DNA of 34,418 bases from contig BDTH01000055.1 in the NCBI GenBank assembly GCA_002923195.1, forward strand, positions 1 to 34,418, in the 5' to 3' direction. The position numbers and the translations under genes were made by a program. Below, piece after piece: positions 1,031 through 34,010 of the stretch. Every line of letters starts with the position of its first letter. The stretch's first letter is position 1. The notes beneath the pieces are model-generated. The model saw only the letters and a program-made list of their open reading frames with translations. It was not told the origin of the DNA and did no database searches. The DNA is from a bacterium BMS3Abin15. Its GTDB lineage: Bacteria; Patescibacteriota; Minisyncoccia; Moranbacterales; 2-12-FULL-40-10.

Positions 1031-2092
1031 ATGAAAAGCCAAATTGACGAGATAAAAAAAGAATACGAAGATATTCAAAAACAACTCGGTAATCCCGAGG
1101 TTGTTTCTGATACTCAGAAGATGGCTAAACTGGGAAAAAGGCAGGCAGAATTGGAAGATACCGTTAATCTAATTAACGAGCTGGAAAAGACAGAAAAGGA
1201 AATGAAAGAAAACGCTGAGATTATTAATACTGAAAAAGACGCCGAGGTAAAACAAATGGCGATGGATGAAAATGTTAAGTTATCCCAGAAAAAAGAAGAA
1301 CTAGGAAAAGAATTGGAAGTTAAATTAATTCCCAAAGATCCCAATGATTCAAAAGATGTCATTGTCGAAATTCGCGCTGGCGCTGGTGGAGACGAATCAG
1401 CCCTTTTTGCGGCTAACTTGTTTAGAATGTATTCTAAATTTGCTGAAAAGAGCGGCTGGAAAACTTCTATTATGAACTCTAGCAGAATCGGGATTGGCGG
1501 ATTTAAAGAAGTAATTTTTGAAATAAGCGGAACGGATGTTTTTTCTAAGATGAAACATGAATCTGGGGTTCATCGGGTTCAAAGAGTGCCTGAAACGGAA
1601 AAAATGGGAAGAGTGCACACTTCTACTGCCACCGTGGCTGTGCTTCCAGAAGCTGAAGAAGTGGAGCTTAAAATTGATCCTAAAGATTTGCGCATTGATA
1701 CTTACGCCTCCTCCGGCCCTGGCGGACAGTCGGTTAACACCACTAACAGCGCGGTGAGAATTACCCACATTCCCACTGATACGGTAGTATCCTGCCAAGA
1801 TGAAAAATCCCAGTTAAAAAACAGGGATAAGGCCATGAAGGTCCTGCGATCCCGTCTGCTTCAAGCTGAGCAGGAAAAACAAGCCAAAGAACTGGGAGAT
1901 GCCAGGCGAAGTCAGATTGGAACTGGCGACCGGAGTGAAAAAATTAGAACATATAACTTTCCGCAAGATCGCATAACTGACCACAGGATTAAAAAGAATT
2001 GGAGTAATATTGAAGGAATACTGGATGGTGATTTTAATGAAATAACTGAAGCATTGCAAGAAGAAGATCAGAAAATCAAAATGTCAAAATGA
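1031..2092 (+). CDS. prfA: Peptide chain release factor 1
   Basis: 353 aa; [16 protein letters not shown] release-factor GGQ motif, full-length RF1 architecture. Confidence 0.96.
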
Positions 2093-3030
2093 AAACAATA
2101 GAAGATATAATAAAAAAATATAAATCAAAGATTGATTACCTAGACCTAGAGATTATCATATCCCGCGCCATTAATAAGTCGCGGGAATTTGTTTTGGCGC
2201 ATCCGGAAAAAAGGCTAACACCAAATCAGAAATTAAGAATTGGGAATTATGCGATGAGAAGGATAAAACATGAGCCGTTGGCATATATTTTGGGAAACAA
2301 AGAATTCTACGGATTGGATTTTAAAGTTAATAAAAATACATTGATCCCCCGCCCGGAAACTGAACTATTAGTAGATGAGACATTAAAAGTGTTAAGTAAC
2401 TTGCCTGCCCGCCGCACTGGAGGGTTCAGTAATAAGTTCAGCAACACTTCTGTTGTTGATATTGGGACCGGATCGGGAAATATAATAATTTCCTTAGCAA
2501 AAAATTCCAAACAAAAAAGTGGGTGTTACGCGACCGATATCTCTGAAAAGGCTCTACGAGTTGCCAAACAGAACGCGAAACTACATAAAGTTTATGAAAA
2601 GATAAAATTCTTCAAATCAAGCTTGCTGGGAAACAAAAAGCTTCTTAACAATTTAACAATGAAGCAATGTAACAATTTAGTTATAGTTGCCAATCTCCCT
2701 TACCTCTCTGAAAAAATATATATGTTGTCCCCTGCTTCTGTAAAAAAATATGAACCTCAGTCTGCATTACTAAGTTCCAATAGAGGGTTGTTCCATTATG
2801 AAAAATTACTCAAACAACTTAAAAAACTACATACCACATACTACCCGCCCGCAACGCCTGAGCGTAGCGATGGCGGGCGGAGCATACCACATACCACATG
2901 CATATTAGAGATAAGTCCCGAACAAAAAACGAGATTAAATAAACTTATCAAACAACACTTCCCGAAACCCAAGGTGATCTTTAAAAAAGACCTGGCCAAA
3001 AAGTGGAGGGTTTGTATAATTACTTTATAA
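2089..3030 (+). CDS. prmC: Release factor glutamine methyltransferase (PrmC/HemK-like), with in-frame repeat insertions
   Basis: ATGA overlap with prfA; SAM-binding [16 protein letters not shown]; substrate motif is NLPY rather than NPPY. Confidence 0.9.
2844..2880. repeat. Palindromic element inside prmC
   Basis: cccgcccgcaacgcctgagcgtagcgatggcgggcgg, encoding [12 protein letters not shown], flanked by direct repeats cataccacata (2830-2840 and 2883-2893). Confidence 0.8.
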
Positions 3031-26031: not shown

Positions 26032-26042
26032 AAAAATGAGCC

Positions 26043-26176
26043 ATCCCGCACCAATTCTCTATATTAAACTTATGCTAACCCCAGCCAAGCCGCAGTCGAT
26101 TCCGTGGTAAAACTATTCTTCTTCGCCACCGCCCTTGGCGGGGTCCCGCCGTGGCGGGAGAATTTGGTGCTGGGAT
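26043..26176. repeat. 134-bp structured intergenic repeat, copy 1
   Basis: Terminal arms atcccgcaccaattct / agaatttggtgctggga; core aagccgcagtcgattccgtgg and cgccaccgcccttggcggggtcccgccgtggcggg shared with 31953-32086. Confidence 0.8.
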
Positions 26177-26183
26177 AATTATC

Positions 26184-27455
26184 TTATTTATTAATTATGT
26201 AATTTATATATTTTATAAGTTCATTCTTGAATTTTTCTTTTGAAAATTTCTCCGCCCTTTGCCTGATAACCTCTTTGTCATATTTTTCCTCATTTTTAAT
26301 AAATTTTCTTACTCCATCAGCCAAAACTTCGGGTGTTTGAGCGCCAAAAAATTCTCCGGTAACTCCTTCTTGTACAACTTCCATTGCTCCACCTTTTTTA
26401 TAAGCGACAATGGGAACTCCGTAACTCATAGCTTCAACCATAGTGATGCCGAAGTCATCCTCAGCTGGAAAAATAAATGCTCGAGCACCAGCATAGTATC
26501 GACTGATTTTGTCGTCGTTTTGCCACCCCAGAACTTTAACATTTTCTCCCGCAATCTTACGCAGATATTTTTCTTGCCTCCCTTCACCGATAACAACTAA
26601 CGGCAACTCTAATTTATTAAACGCTTCTATTGCCAAATCAACCTTTTTGTACGGAATCAGACGGGAAACAATTAGGAAATATTTGTCATTTTGAGCATTA
26701 ATAGCTGGTGGACCCGCCCGCCGCGCCACATCGGAGCGTAGCGATGGCGTTGCGGGCGGGTATATAATCTTGCTTTCTCTCCGATAATATTTTCTAATCC
26801 TCTCCTGGGTGTATTTTGAATTAGCAATCAGATAATCCGGTCGATCAGCCGCTTGGCGGTCCCAAATGCGAATATAATTTAGAATGGGACGAATAAAAAA
26901 AATTTCCAATTTACTTTGAACTTTGAACTTTGAACTTTGAATTTCACGAATATATCTTTCGTTATAATCCCAGACATAGCGCATCGGGGAATGGAGATAA
27001 GCAATGTGAATAGTATTGAGCTTAGTTACGATTCCTTTACTCCAAGCGCCAGAAGAGGAAATTACTAAATTAAATTCGCGAAGGTCAAATGTTTCTGGCG
27101 CAGTAGGAATGAAAGGCAAAAGTAGCCCATGCCTCTTTCGCATAAATTTAGGAAACTTTTGCAGAAAAGAAGTGTGAATTTCCTTATCCTTAAATTTACC
27201 TTTCATTCTTTCCTGATCATGAAGCAAGGTATAAATCGGCGCTTCTGGAAACATTTCGCAAAGCACCTCTAAAACTTTCTCTGCCCCGCCGTATTGGGTA
27301 AGAAAATCATGTACAAGCGCTATGCGCAACTCCCCCTCTCCCTCTGGGAGAGGGTTGGGGTGAGGGTTATTGTTTGACACTCCCTCATCCGCCCTGCGGG
27401 CACCTTCTCCCATAGGGAGAAGGGATTTGTTTTGTTGTGCTTGACTTTTTTGCAT
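26184..27455 (-). CDS. GT4 glycosyltransferase; true start may be TTG near 27330 (MRIALVHDF)
   Basis: 423 aa; RIALVHDFLTQYGGAEKVLEVL, GEGRQEKYLRKIA, EDDFGITMVEAMSYGVPIVAY. Confidence 0.87.
   Translation of the reverse strand: MQKSQAQQNKSLLPMGEGARRADEGVSNNNPHPNPLPEGEGELRIALVHDFLTQYGGAEKVLEVLCEMFPEAPIYTLLHDQERMKGKFKDKEIHTSFLQKFPKFMRKRHGLLLPFIPTAPETFDLREFNLVISSSGAWSKGIVTKLNTIHIAYLHSPMRYVWDYNERYIREIQSSKFKVQSKLEIFFIRPILNYIRIWDRQAADRPDYLIANSKYTQERIRKYYRRESKIIYPPATPSLRSDVARRAGPPAINAQNDKYFLIVSRLIPYKKVDLAIEAFNKLELPLVVIGEGRQEKYLRKIAGENVKVLGWQNDDKISRYYAGARAFIFPAEDDFGITMVEAMSYGVPIVAYKKGGAMEVVQEGVTGEFFGAQTPEVLADGVRKFIKNEEKYDKEVIRQRAEKFSKEKFKNELIKYINYIINK
26712..26762. repeat. Palindromic element inside the GT4 gene
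   Basis: acccgcccgccgcgccacatcggagcgtagcgatggcgttgcgggcgggta, encoding YPPATPSLRSDVARRAGPP. Confidence 0.8.
27332..27423. repeat. 92-bp MITE-like repeat carrying both ends of the DUF559 element
   Basis: Left 27332-27368 and right 27382-27423 separated by 13 bp; encodes SLLPMGEGARRADEGVSNNNPHPNPLPEGEGE at the 5' end of the GT4 ORF. Confidence 0.75.
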
Positions 27456-27731: not shown

Positions 27732-27778
27732 AGACTTGCTTGAATACTCTACTTCGTATTTAAGCAAGTCTTTTTTTA
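27732..27778. terminator. Rho-independent terminator, bidirectional
   Basis: agacttgcttgaatac-tctactt-cgtatttaagcaagtctttttttatt between convergent genes. Confidence 0.8.
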
Positions 27779-29011
27779 TTCCAACAATTCAGCGACTTCA
27801 CTCGCGCATTTTTCCCAACTAAACCTTTTCACATTCTCATATCCTTTGTTTATTATATCATTTTTCAAGTTTTCGTCCGAAATTAATCTATAGGTAGTTT
27901 CAGCAATCTGCTCATGATTATTTGGGTCAACTAACAAGGCAGATCTTATTCGTATGTTCGTACCTGATTCGTAATTCGTAGAGATCTCCGGAATTGATGA
28001 GTTATTTCCCGCTACCACTGGCGTTCCAACACTTTGAGCTTCTAAGACAGGAATACCGAATCCTTCATAAAATGTAGGAAAAAGGAAAACATCAGCATTT
28101 TTTAAAAGTTCCCACTTTTTTTCTTCACTTACATAACCAGTAATGATTATGTCTTTTTCGCTTTTCGCTTTTCGCTTTTCGCTTTCAACTTCCTCAAATC
28201 CATATCCCTTTCCCCCGACCAATACTAATTTGTGTGGAATATTATACTTTTCTTTTAACATTTCAAATGTCTTGATGATTCCGACTATATTTTTTCGTTT
28301 TTCTAGCCGCCCAACAAAAAGTAAATAGGGTTTTTCAATTTTTTCATTAATTTTGATATTTGATATTTGATATTTGATATTTTGCTCGTATCCTTCATAA
28401 ATTACCGTGATTTTTTCTTCCGGCGTTTTATAGAATTTCACTAAATCTTTCTTAGTATTTTGAGATACAGCAATGATTTTATTCGCCCATTTACAGGAAT
28501 TTTTAATTGACTCGCGCATATAAAAATTTTCCCAAGCGGAATAAGATCTGGGAAAAACTTCATATTCCAATCCATGAATCGTCACAATGGTATCTTTCGG
28601 CCCGTTCGCCATGCTACGCCACTTATTACTATCCTGAGAACTAAAAATTCTAACCAGTTTCCTAATCGGACTAAATAGTTTAGAAAGCAGGGCGTTGCGG
28701 GCGGGATGAATTAAGGGGGCCGTATGGGCTGGAACAAATAAAATATCGACTGGATTAAAAATCATTTCCAGTGATAAACGAATCTGAGTCCAAAACCTTG
28801 GCGCCCAAAGTTTTTTAACTTTCCAGCCTTGCCTGCCGGCAGGCAGGTTTTCCGACAAATCAAAATCCACTGCTTGATTATACCTGATATATAAAACCAC
28901 CTGGTGGTTTTTTATTTTACCCCTCAGGTGTTTAATTACTTGATAAGAATATTCCTCGATCCCGGTACGCTTTTTAATAAAAGCCCTGGAACCGTCAATC
29001 CCAATAATCAT
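27776..29011 (-). CDS. GT4 glycosyltransferase with several in-frame repeat insertions
   Basis: 411 aa; LLFVGRLEKRKNIVGIIKTFEML, FLFPTFYEGFGIPVLEAQSVGTPVVAGNNSSIPE. Confidence 0.9.
   Translation of the reverse strand: MIIGIDGSRAFIKKRTGIEEYSYQVIKHLRGKIKNHQVVLYIRYNQAVDFDLSENLPAGRQGWKVKKLWAPRFWTQIRLSLEMIFNPVDILFVPAHTAPLIHPARNALLSKLFSPIRKLVRIFSSQDSNKWRSMANGPKDTIVTIHGLEYEVFPRSYSAWENFYMRESIKNSCKWANKIIAVSQNTKKDLVKFYKTPEEKITVIYEGYEQNIKYQISNIKINEKIEKPYLLFVGRLEKRKNIVGIIKTFEMLKEKYNIPHKLVLVGGKGYGFEEVESEKRKAKSEKDIIITGYVSEEKKWELLKNADVFLFPTFYEGFGIPVLEAQSVGTPVVAGNNSSIPEISTNYESGTNIRIRSALLVDPNNHEQIAETTYRLISDENLKNDIINKGYENVKRFSWEKCASEVAELLE
28601..28705. repeat. In-frame insertion with imperfect inverted ends inside the GT4 gene
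   Basis: cccgttcgccatgctacgcc (28601-28620) and ggcgttgcgggcggg (28691-28705); encodes ARNALLSKLFSPIRKLVRIFSSQDSNKWRSMANG. Confidence 0.55.
28828..28848. repeat. cttgcctgccggcaggcagg palindrome inside the GT4 gene
   Basis: Encodes in-frame NLPAGRQGW. Confidence 0.85.
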
Positions 29012-29036: not shown

Positions 29037-29078
29037 CCTGCCCGCCAATCGCCGTGCTCAAGGCACTGGCAGGCGGGC
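29037..29078. repeat. Intergenic palindromic element
   Basis: cctgcccgcc...ggcaggcggg with inner gtgc-tcaag-gcac. Confidence 0.75.
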
Positions 29079-31941: not shown

Positions 31942-31952
31942 CAAAAATGAGC

Positions 31953-32086
31953 ATCCCGCACCAATTCTCTGTTTTAGATTTAAATTATTTCTGACTAAGC
32001 CGCAGGCGATTCCGTGGATAAAACTTATACTTTTTCGCCACCGCCTCTGGCGGGGTCCCGCCATGGCGGGAGAATTTGGTGCGGGG
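31953..32086. repeat. 134-bp structured intergenic repeat, copy 2
   Basis: Same length, terminal arms and cores as 26043-26176. Confidence 0.8.
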
Positions 32087-32833: not shown

Positions 32834-32922
32834 TAATTTTCTCTATACAGTGTATAGAGCTAAGACAAGGATTCTTGCCTTTAGGTTATTCAGCTTTCGC
32901 TGTTTTTGTTTTTGTATTTTTA

Positions 32923-33022
32923 CCCCCACACCAACTTCCAATAATAATTTAATTAACCATTGGCCTGCTATGCTTTTAAAACTTAATAATATTGGTGACT
33001 ATGCCAAAAGTTGGTGTGGGGG
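32923..33022. repeat. ~100-bp element with 15-bp perfect terminal inverted repeats (copy B)
   Basis: cccccacaccaactt (32923-32937) / aagttggtgtggggg (33008-33022). Confidence 0.8.
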
Positions 33023-33071
33023 TGAATTTTTAAAAGAACTCAATACACAACATTATGTTAAATGTTGCCTA

Positions 33072-33973: not shown

Positions 33974-34010
33974 CCTGCCCGCAATGCTAGCGATAGCGTT
34001 GCAGGCGGGG
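33974..34010. repeat. Palindromic element upstream of the CAP gene
   Basis: cctgcccgcaatgctagcgatagcgttgcaggcgggg. Confidence 0.75.

Follow-up and report, generated by a model that had tools for sequence, protein, structure and literature searches.

Two in-frame insertions in a GT4 glycosyltransferase gene

Does a single glycosyltransferase gene carry two distinct palindromic insertions in its reading frame, as the original prediction held, or do the stretches concerned belong to the enzyme itself? Palindromes that enter conserved genes without disturbing the frame have been described above all in Rickettsia. The window, that is, the whole stretch of 34,418 nucleotides analyzed here, comes from a draft genome that totals 1.22 Mb over 114 contigs. 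On its minus strand, positions 27776..29011 hold a gene for a 411-residue GT4 glycosyltransferase, recognized by Pfam as Glycos_transf_1 (PF00534, E 1.2e-38) and Glyco_transf_4 (PF13439). The predicted structure of the protein matches the fold of BshA/MshA-type GT-B enzymes, and its nearest named ortholog originates from a Patescibacteria MAG. Both stretches lie within this gene; we call the shorter insert element A and the longer one element B.

Two true GT4 orthologs served for the comparison, L018 from genome G001, the sole genome of the same family compared, and L039. The G001 protein is 61% identical to the window protein over the whole alignment and 65% over the best segment, and this level of 61-65% is kept on either side of both stretches, which are themselves missing. 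Opposite the window sequence ENLPAGRQGWKVK the ortholog has DNWKIK, and opposite PLIHP, the 35 residues and KDTIVTIHGLEYE it has PIISSGNTIVTIHGLEYE, the alignment breaking off at window residue 102 and resuming at 140, with six bases in between. The same-family ortholog is therefore continuous over both sites, reading NW at the first and SSGN-TIVTIHGLEYE at the second, and the prediction that a ~105-bp segment interrupts an otherwise contiguous GT4 sequence is borne out. The L039 ortholog (52% identical) reads PLVHPKNSVVTIHGLEYE, its empty site being given as HPKNSVVTIHGLEYE. The element A insert is missing from L018 and the element B insert from both L018 and L039. Because the orthologs do without both stretches, we conclude that both were inserted, adding 7 and 35 codons, respectively. 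No target-site duplication was visible at either site upon comparison with the orthologs.

The AlphaFold model of the GT4 protein reached a mean pLDDT of 84.4 and a pTM of 0.83. Strands 90-93 and 140-145 are consecutive in the modeled core and enclose the 35 inserted residues at a pLDDT of about 51-59 (blocks 101-140), and strands 37-43 and 63-68 flank LPAGRQG, in a region where block 51-60 averages a pLDDT of 60. The alignment behind the model was 12 sequences deep and low pLDDT of the inserts is partly expected from so few homologs; the placement in loops rests on the confident flanking strands. In the model, both inserts are low-confidence loops between core strands, in agreement with the empty sites of the homologs.

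Two heptanucleotide tandem arrays are also present in frame on the minus strand, TTTTCGC x4.4 at 28155..28185 (ESEKRKAKSEK) and TTTGATA x4.4 at 28352..28382 (IKYQISNIK), and the number of repeat-derived stretches in this gene thus exceeds two. Arrays occupy the two matching places in both GT4 orthologs, the window gene and L018 (2007-2038 and 2203-2260), with differing heptamers; opposite the TTTGATA array the ortholog has GAATTTC x4.6. Block 211-220 of the structure model (pLDDT 48) overlaps one of the arrays. Near its C-terminus, the G001 ortholog in turn carries a different, large insert (NLSFRADPERAKRVEG...SSRSLHFGRDDK). A related GC-rich palindrome, CCTGCCCGCC...GGCAGGCGGGC, was read directly at 29037..29078 just upstream of the GT4 start, with no strand assigned, and a repeat of ~133 bp beginning ATCCCGCACCAA has two copies in the window (26042-26174 and 31952-32086) and more elsewhere in the genome. 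An Rfam search of the window matched no RNA family.

Element A is a widespread short palindrome

The element A insert comprises 21 bp at 28826..28846 on the minus strand and encodes LPAGRQG; its edges can shift by a base or two. The palindrome cttgcctgccggcaggcagg spans 28828-28847, which confirms the palindrome proposed to encode NLPAGRQGW and moves its end, previously put at 28848, one base lower. It belongs to a family whose usual form is CCTGCCTGCCGGCAGGCAGG and whose 14-bp core was found in 98 of 380 Patescibacteria genomes, with at most 34 copies per genome, as against 3 for the reversed string used as control. The element is open in all three frames, giving LPAGRQ, CLPAGR or ACRQAG, and 15 of the 76 copies that were read with their flanks sit well within ORFs of at least 170 aa. 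Recurrence in unrelated families had been suggested as a check for the peptides of both inserts; it holds for LPAGRQ, the hosts in other genomes being, as we presume from their sequences, DnaE, MutM, MsrB and ThrRS.

Element A was also seen next to tRNA genes. At L088:1480-1871, L090 (minus strand, ~1247-1540), L110:1480-1800 and L128 (minus strand, ~1232-1540), a tRNA 5' half carries the element in its D-loop, and at ~1400-1900 of L188 in the source genome a tRNA 5' half has a palindrome other than A in the same place. Each of these 5' halves is directly followed by a GIY-YIG gene, after which L088, L090 and L188 have an intact tRNA whose 5' half resembles the preceding one. The arrangement looks like an insertion that duplicated the 5' part of the tRNA. 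At L002:1470-1540, element A lies within an apparent truncated tRNA gene directly ahead of an intact tRNA-Val.

Element B is a hairpin found in core genes

The element B insert at 28601..28705 (minus strand) measures exactly 105 bp, and the imperfect inverted ends ascribed to this segment were confirmed, with CCCGCCCGCAACGCC on one side and GGCGTAGCATGGCGAACGGG on the other (minus strand). Compared with the homologs it adds ARNALLSKLFSPIRKLVRIFSSQDSNKWRSMANGP (35 aa) between HP and KDTIVTIHGLEYE. Element B is an imperfect hairpin of 36-39 bp, CCCGCCYGCAACGC...GCGTAGC...GGGCRGG, with a length that is usually a multiple of three. The GT4 copy has its terminal arms, which are common to other B copies, around an enlarged loop of 70 nt, and its terminal 15-mer is found again in other elements of the genome. 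This copy folds weakly (z -1.37 versus shuffles). A search for the 70-nt center in 338 kb of the source genome and 240 kb of related sequence yielded short chance words only, and since the center matches nothing else found, KWRSMANG, the second of the peptides suggested for this check, is not a recurring peptide. The center could be a nested or captured sequence; in two other B copies (L042:5043 and L048:10624), the loop holds an additional, smaller palindrome.

In 627 kb of the source genome we counted 19 copies of B, 11 of them within ORFs of at least 170 aa, which make up 76% of the sequence searched. Besides the GT4 copy, the window has three B elements. A 50-bp hairpin of the B type (z -3.85 versus shuffles) stands in frame in the neighboring GT4 gene (26184-27455) at 26712..26761 on the minus strand, a third element lies in frame in a prmC-like gene (2089-3030) at 2844..2880 on the plus strand, where the copy at 2840 folds with z -3.46 versus shuffles, and a fourth, at 33974..34009 (minus strand), shares the B sequence and lies outside long ORFs. 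Beyond the source genome, two clear copies were found among 142 genomes of the class, in G386 and G444, the other matches being weak and partial; one of the two is in frame in a gene that we take to be tsaD.

The peptide PARNATHSVAGG encoded by B is present in both IleRS and ThrRS, the Ile- and Thr-tRNA synthetases. The IleRS copy corresponds to a clean gap of 13 residues in solved IleRS homologs, and comparison with these structures fixed the identity of the enzyme as IleRS. Likewise, the DnaE copy corresponds to a gap of 17 residues relative to solved Pol III alpha. Further in-frame hosts, which by their sequences are presumably ArgRS, a TrmH-like methyltransferase, MnmA, DnaX, MurB, a YchF-like GTPase and PrmC, were also recognized.

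Candidate movers of the palindromes

How might such elements be moved? There is a close to even chance that the mover is a GIY-YIG element, an autonomous unit of ~290 bp with one gene for an ~85-aa GIY-YIG endonuclease between inverted repeats, of which short B-like palindromes would be deletion derivatives moved in trans. The source genome has 13 matches to PF01541. Units of 280-309 bp, each with one GIY-YIG gene between inverted repeats and with short relatives elsewhere in the genome, lie at L044:473-771, L057:16011-16305, L057:14975-15263, L195:647-955 and L199:2912-3191, and several such units share their bounding inverted repeats with short gene-less elements, as in the ACCCCCACACCAA, ACCCCGTTAGAAA, CCCCGTAGT and CCTGTTAAATAA families. 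The same pattern, one or two GIY-YIG members of 280-309 bp together with several members of 32-150 bp, in other repeat families of the source genome argues for such an origin, but the interiors of the short forms have no obvious GIY-YIG remnant. Paired inverted repeats with a score of at least 13 flank 24 of 82 distinct GIY-YIG genes, compared with 43 of 3000 mismatched flank pairs; the same inverted-repeat signal is, however, expected if GIY-YIG genes entered pre-existing palindromes. Direct repeats with a score of at least 14 were found for 24 of the 82 genes versus 39 of 3000 mismatched pairs, and several elements of the GIY-YIG families are flanked by target duplications of 3-4 bp such as TCAA, TTAA or CATA. 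Duplications of this kind are frequent in these other families, whereas none is visible for B.

The link to B itself comes from L060:11505-11795, a stretch of 291 bp in which B-like arms (ACCCGCCCGC...) stand on both sides of a GIY-YIG gene. It is a single case, however; the GIY-YIG frame is cut short at 65 aa, and the match of the arms to the B consensus is partial. No GIY-YIG gene with element A as its outer ends was found. Around the same unit (L060:11505-11890), one side has a partial copy, ~40 bp, of the start of an apparent sugar-nucleotide epimerase gene and the other the complete start of that gene, the two differing at several bases. In the window, 32922-33023 is a member of the ACCCCCACACCAA inverted-repeat family (102 bp) and 527-625 one of the ACCCCGTTAGAAA family (99 bp, with a TTGA duplication). 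The inverted repeat of a GIY-YIG gene in G289 occurred around that gene and in one weak match, with no clear solo copies.

We tentatively propose, as an idea that we would not yet call probable, that Patescibacteria host a very small mobile element of ~290 bp consisting of a single gene for an ~85-aa GIY-YIG endonuclease and inverted repeats of 13-25 bp, with target duplications of 3-4 bp in some families, whose deletion derivatives may be the gene-invading in-frame palindromes, the GT4 insert being one of them. A- and B-type palindromes may be linked to very small GIY-YIG elements that would form a new class, and the GIY-YIG genes flanked by inverted repeats are a testable candidate mover.

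The other candidate, which we consider conceivable while leaning against it, is a RAYT (Y1/HUH) transposase that would copy A and B as REP-like palindromes via single-stranded hairpins, without target duplication. Because no target duplication is visible at A and B, the HUH route is the better fit in this respect. The source genome has five Y1_Tnp genes, and such genes were found in 12 of 14 A-rich versus 13 of 36 A-free genomes, a comparison that is confounded by phylogeny; no Y1_Tnp match was obtained in two of the A-rich genomes, G101 and G223. Many RAYT genes of Patescibacteria are bordered by their own palindromes and also contain them in frame. Such gene-specific palindromes flank the RAYT-type genes at L036:1285-1998 and L037:1260-1995 and those of L154, L155, L163 and L174, in several of which they also occur in frame inside the gene. 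This shows that in-gene palindromes of this kind accompany RAYTs in Patescibacteria, but those palindromes are neither A nor B: among the RAYT genes read in the source genome and in 14 A-rich genomes, none had A or B on its flanks, other palindromes standing there instead, and B lacks a terminal GTAG tag. The sole copy of A near a RAYT gene (L155/L135) was rejected as a candidate, being 146 bp away and beyond the palindrome of that gene itself.

Interpretation and significance

Very probably, two dispersed palindromic mobile elements, different from one another, each placed a copy in the GT4 gene; the copies leave the frame intact and are predicted to be translated as extra surface loops. The claim of two distinct in-frame palindromic inserts is upheld, both being missing in orthologs and both belonging to dispersed palindrome families. 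That they are instead ancestral GT4 loops or functional motifs without any insertion is most improbable: both do lie in an open frame of a gene with conserved core motifs, but they are missing from both orthologs, whose empty sites contradict this reading, the same peptides occur in unrelated enzymes, and their DNA is palindromic and also recurs outside genes.

In this reading, A is a near-perfect palindrome of ~20 bp with all three frames open, and B is a hairpin of 36-39 bp whose loop is enlarged in the GT4 gene, so that it measures 105 bp there. Persistence would be explained by selection retaining only insertions that preserve the frame and are located in loops. Both elements would be moved in trans, the most likely agent being a nuclease with its gene at another locus, either the endonuclease of a GIY-YIG element or a HUH transposase of the RAYT type. 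As no evidence of a host function was found, we treat A and B as tolerated selfish DNA. The phylum is distant from Rickettsia, its members reduced and for the most part uncultured; that different elements are present there in core genes, among them those for IleRS and DnaE, suggests that selfish DNA repeatedly takes this route to add loops to proteins. Annotation is affected as well: for CPR proteins, peptides of this kind can distort sequence alignments, modeled structures and phylogenies.

Comparison with known systems

Rickettsia palindromic elements (RPE) are short palindromic repeats that lie in frame in many unrelated conserved genes, are translated, and also occur in RNA genes (PMC2229807, PMC10969869). 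The A and B palindromes are similarly found in frame in unrelated conserved protein genes, and the resemblance to RPE noted in the original prediction holds for behavior (empty sites, recurrence in core proteins, loops); the GT4 copy of B is, however, an enlarged-loop variant and not a typical element. RPE measure 105-146 bp, compared with mostly 36-39 bp for B and ~20 bp for A, and the phylum differs. A CGTC tag terminates RPE-4 and RPE-6 (PMC3733652) but is absent from the directly read ends of A and B. The REP/RAYT systems (GTAG and CGTC REPs) comprise palindromes of 20-40 bp, some within genes, with tyrosine transposases nearby (PMC3733652). In contrast, A has no GTAG, B has it near the loop rather than at the terminus, and no RAYT with A or B flanks was found. 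Given the different end tags and the lack of a cognate RAYT, membership of A and B in RPE or REP families is not claimed. MITEs (RUP, Correia, ERIC) are short, non-autonomous elements with inverted ends that are sometimes fused to ORFs (PMC2229807), whereas A and B have no target-site duplication and a transposase with the same ends is only a candidate. Finally, insertion sequences in CPR rRNA genes carry homing-type endonuclease genes, some of them GIY-YIG (PMC11270868); those sit in rRNA genes, whereas here short palindromes sit in protein genes and GIY-YIG genes lie between inverted repeats.

The literature covered on the peptide and on palindromes, RAYT, MITE or GIY-YIG in CPR/Patescibacteria, which did not extend to subscription papers and preprints, contained no description of A or B. 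The phenomenon is of a known, RPE-like kind, and the form it takes in this phylum is apparently new. Set against the descriptions of RPE, A and B appear to act like these elements and yet to form a separate set of sequences, the likeness being one of behavior.
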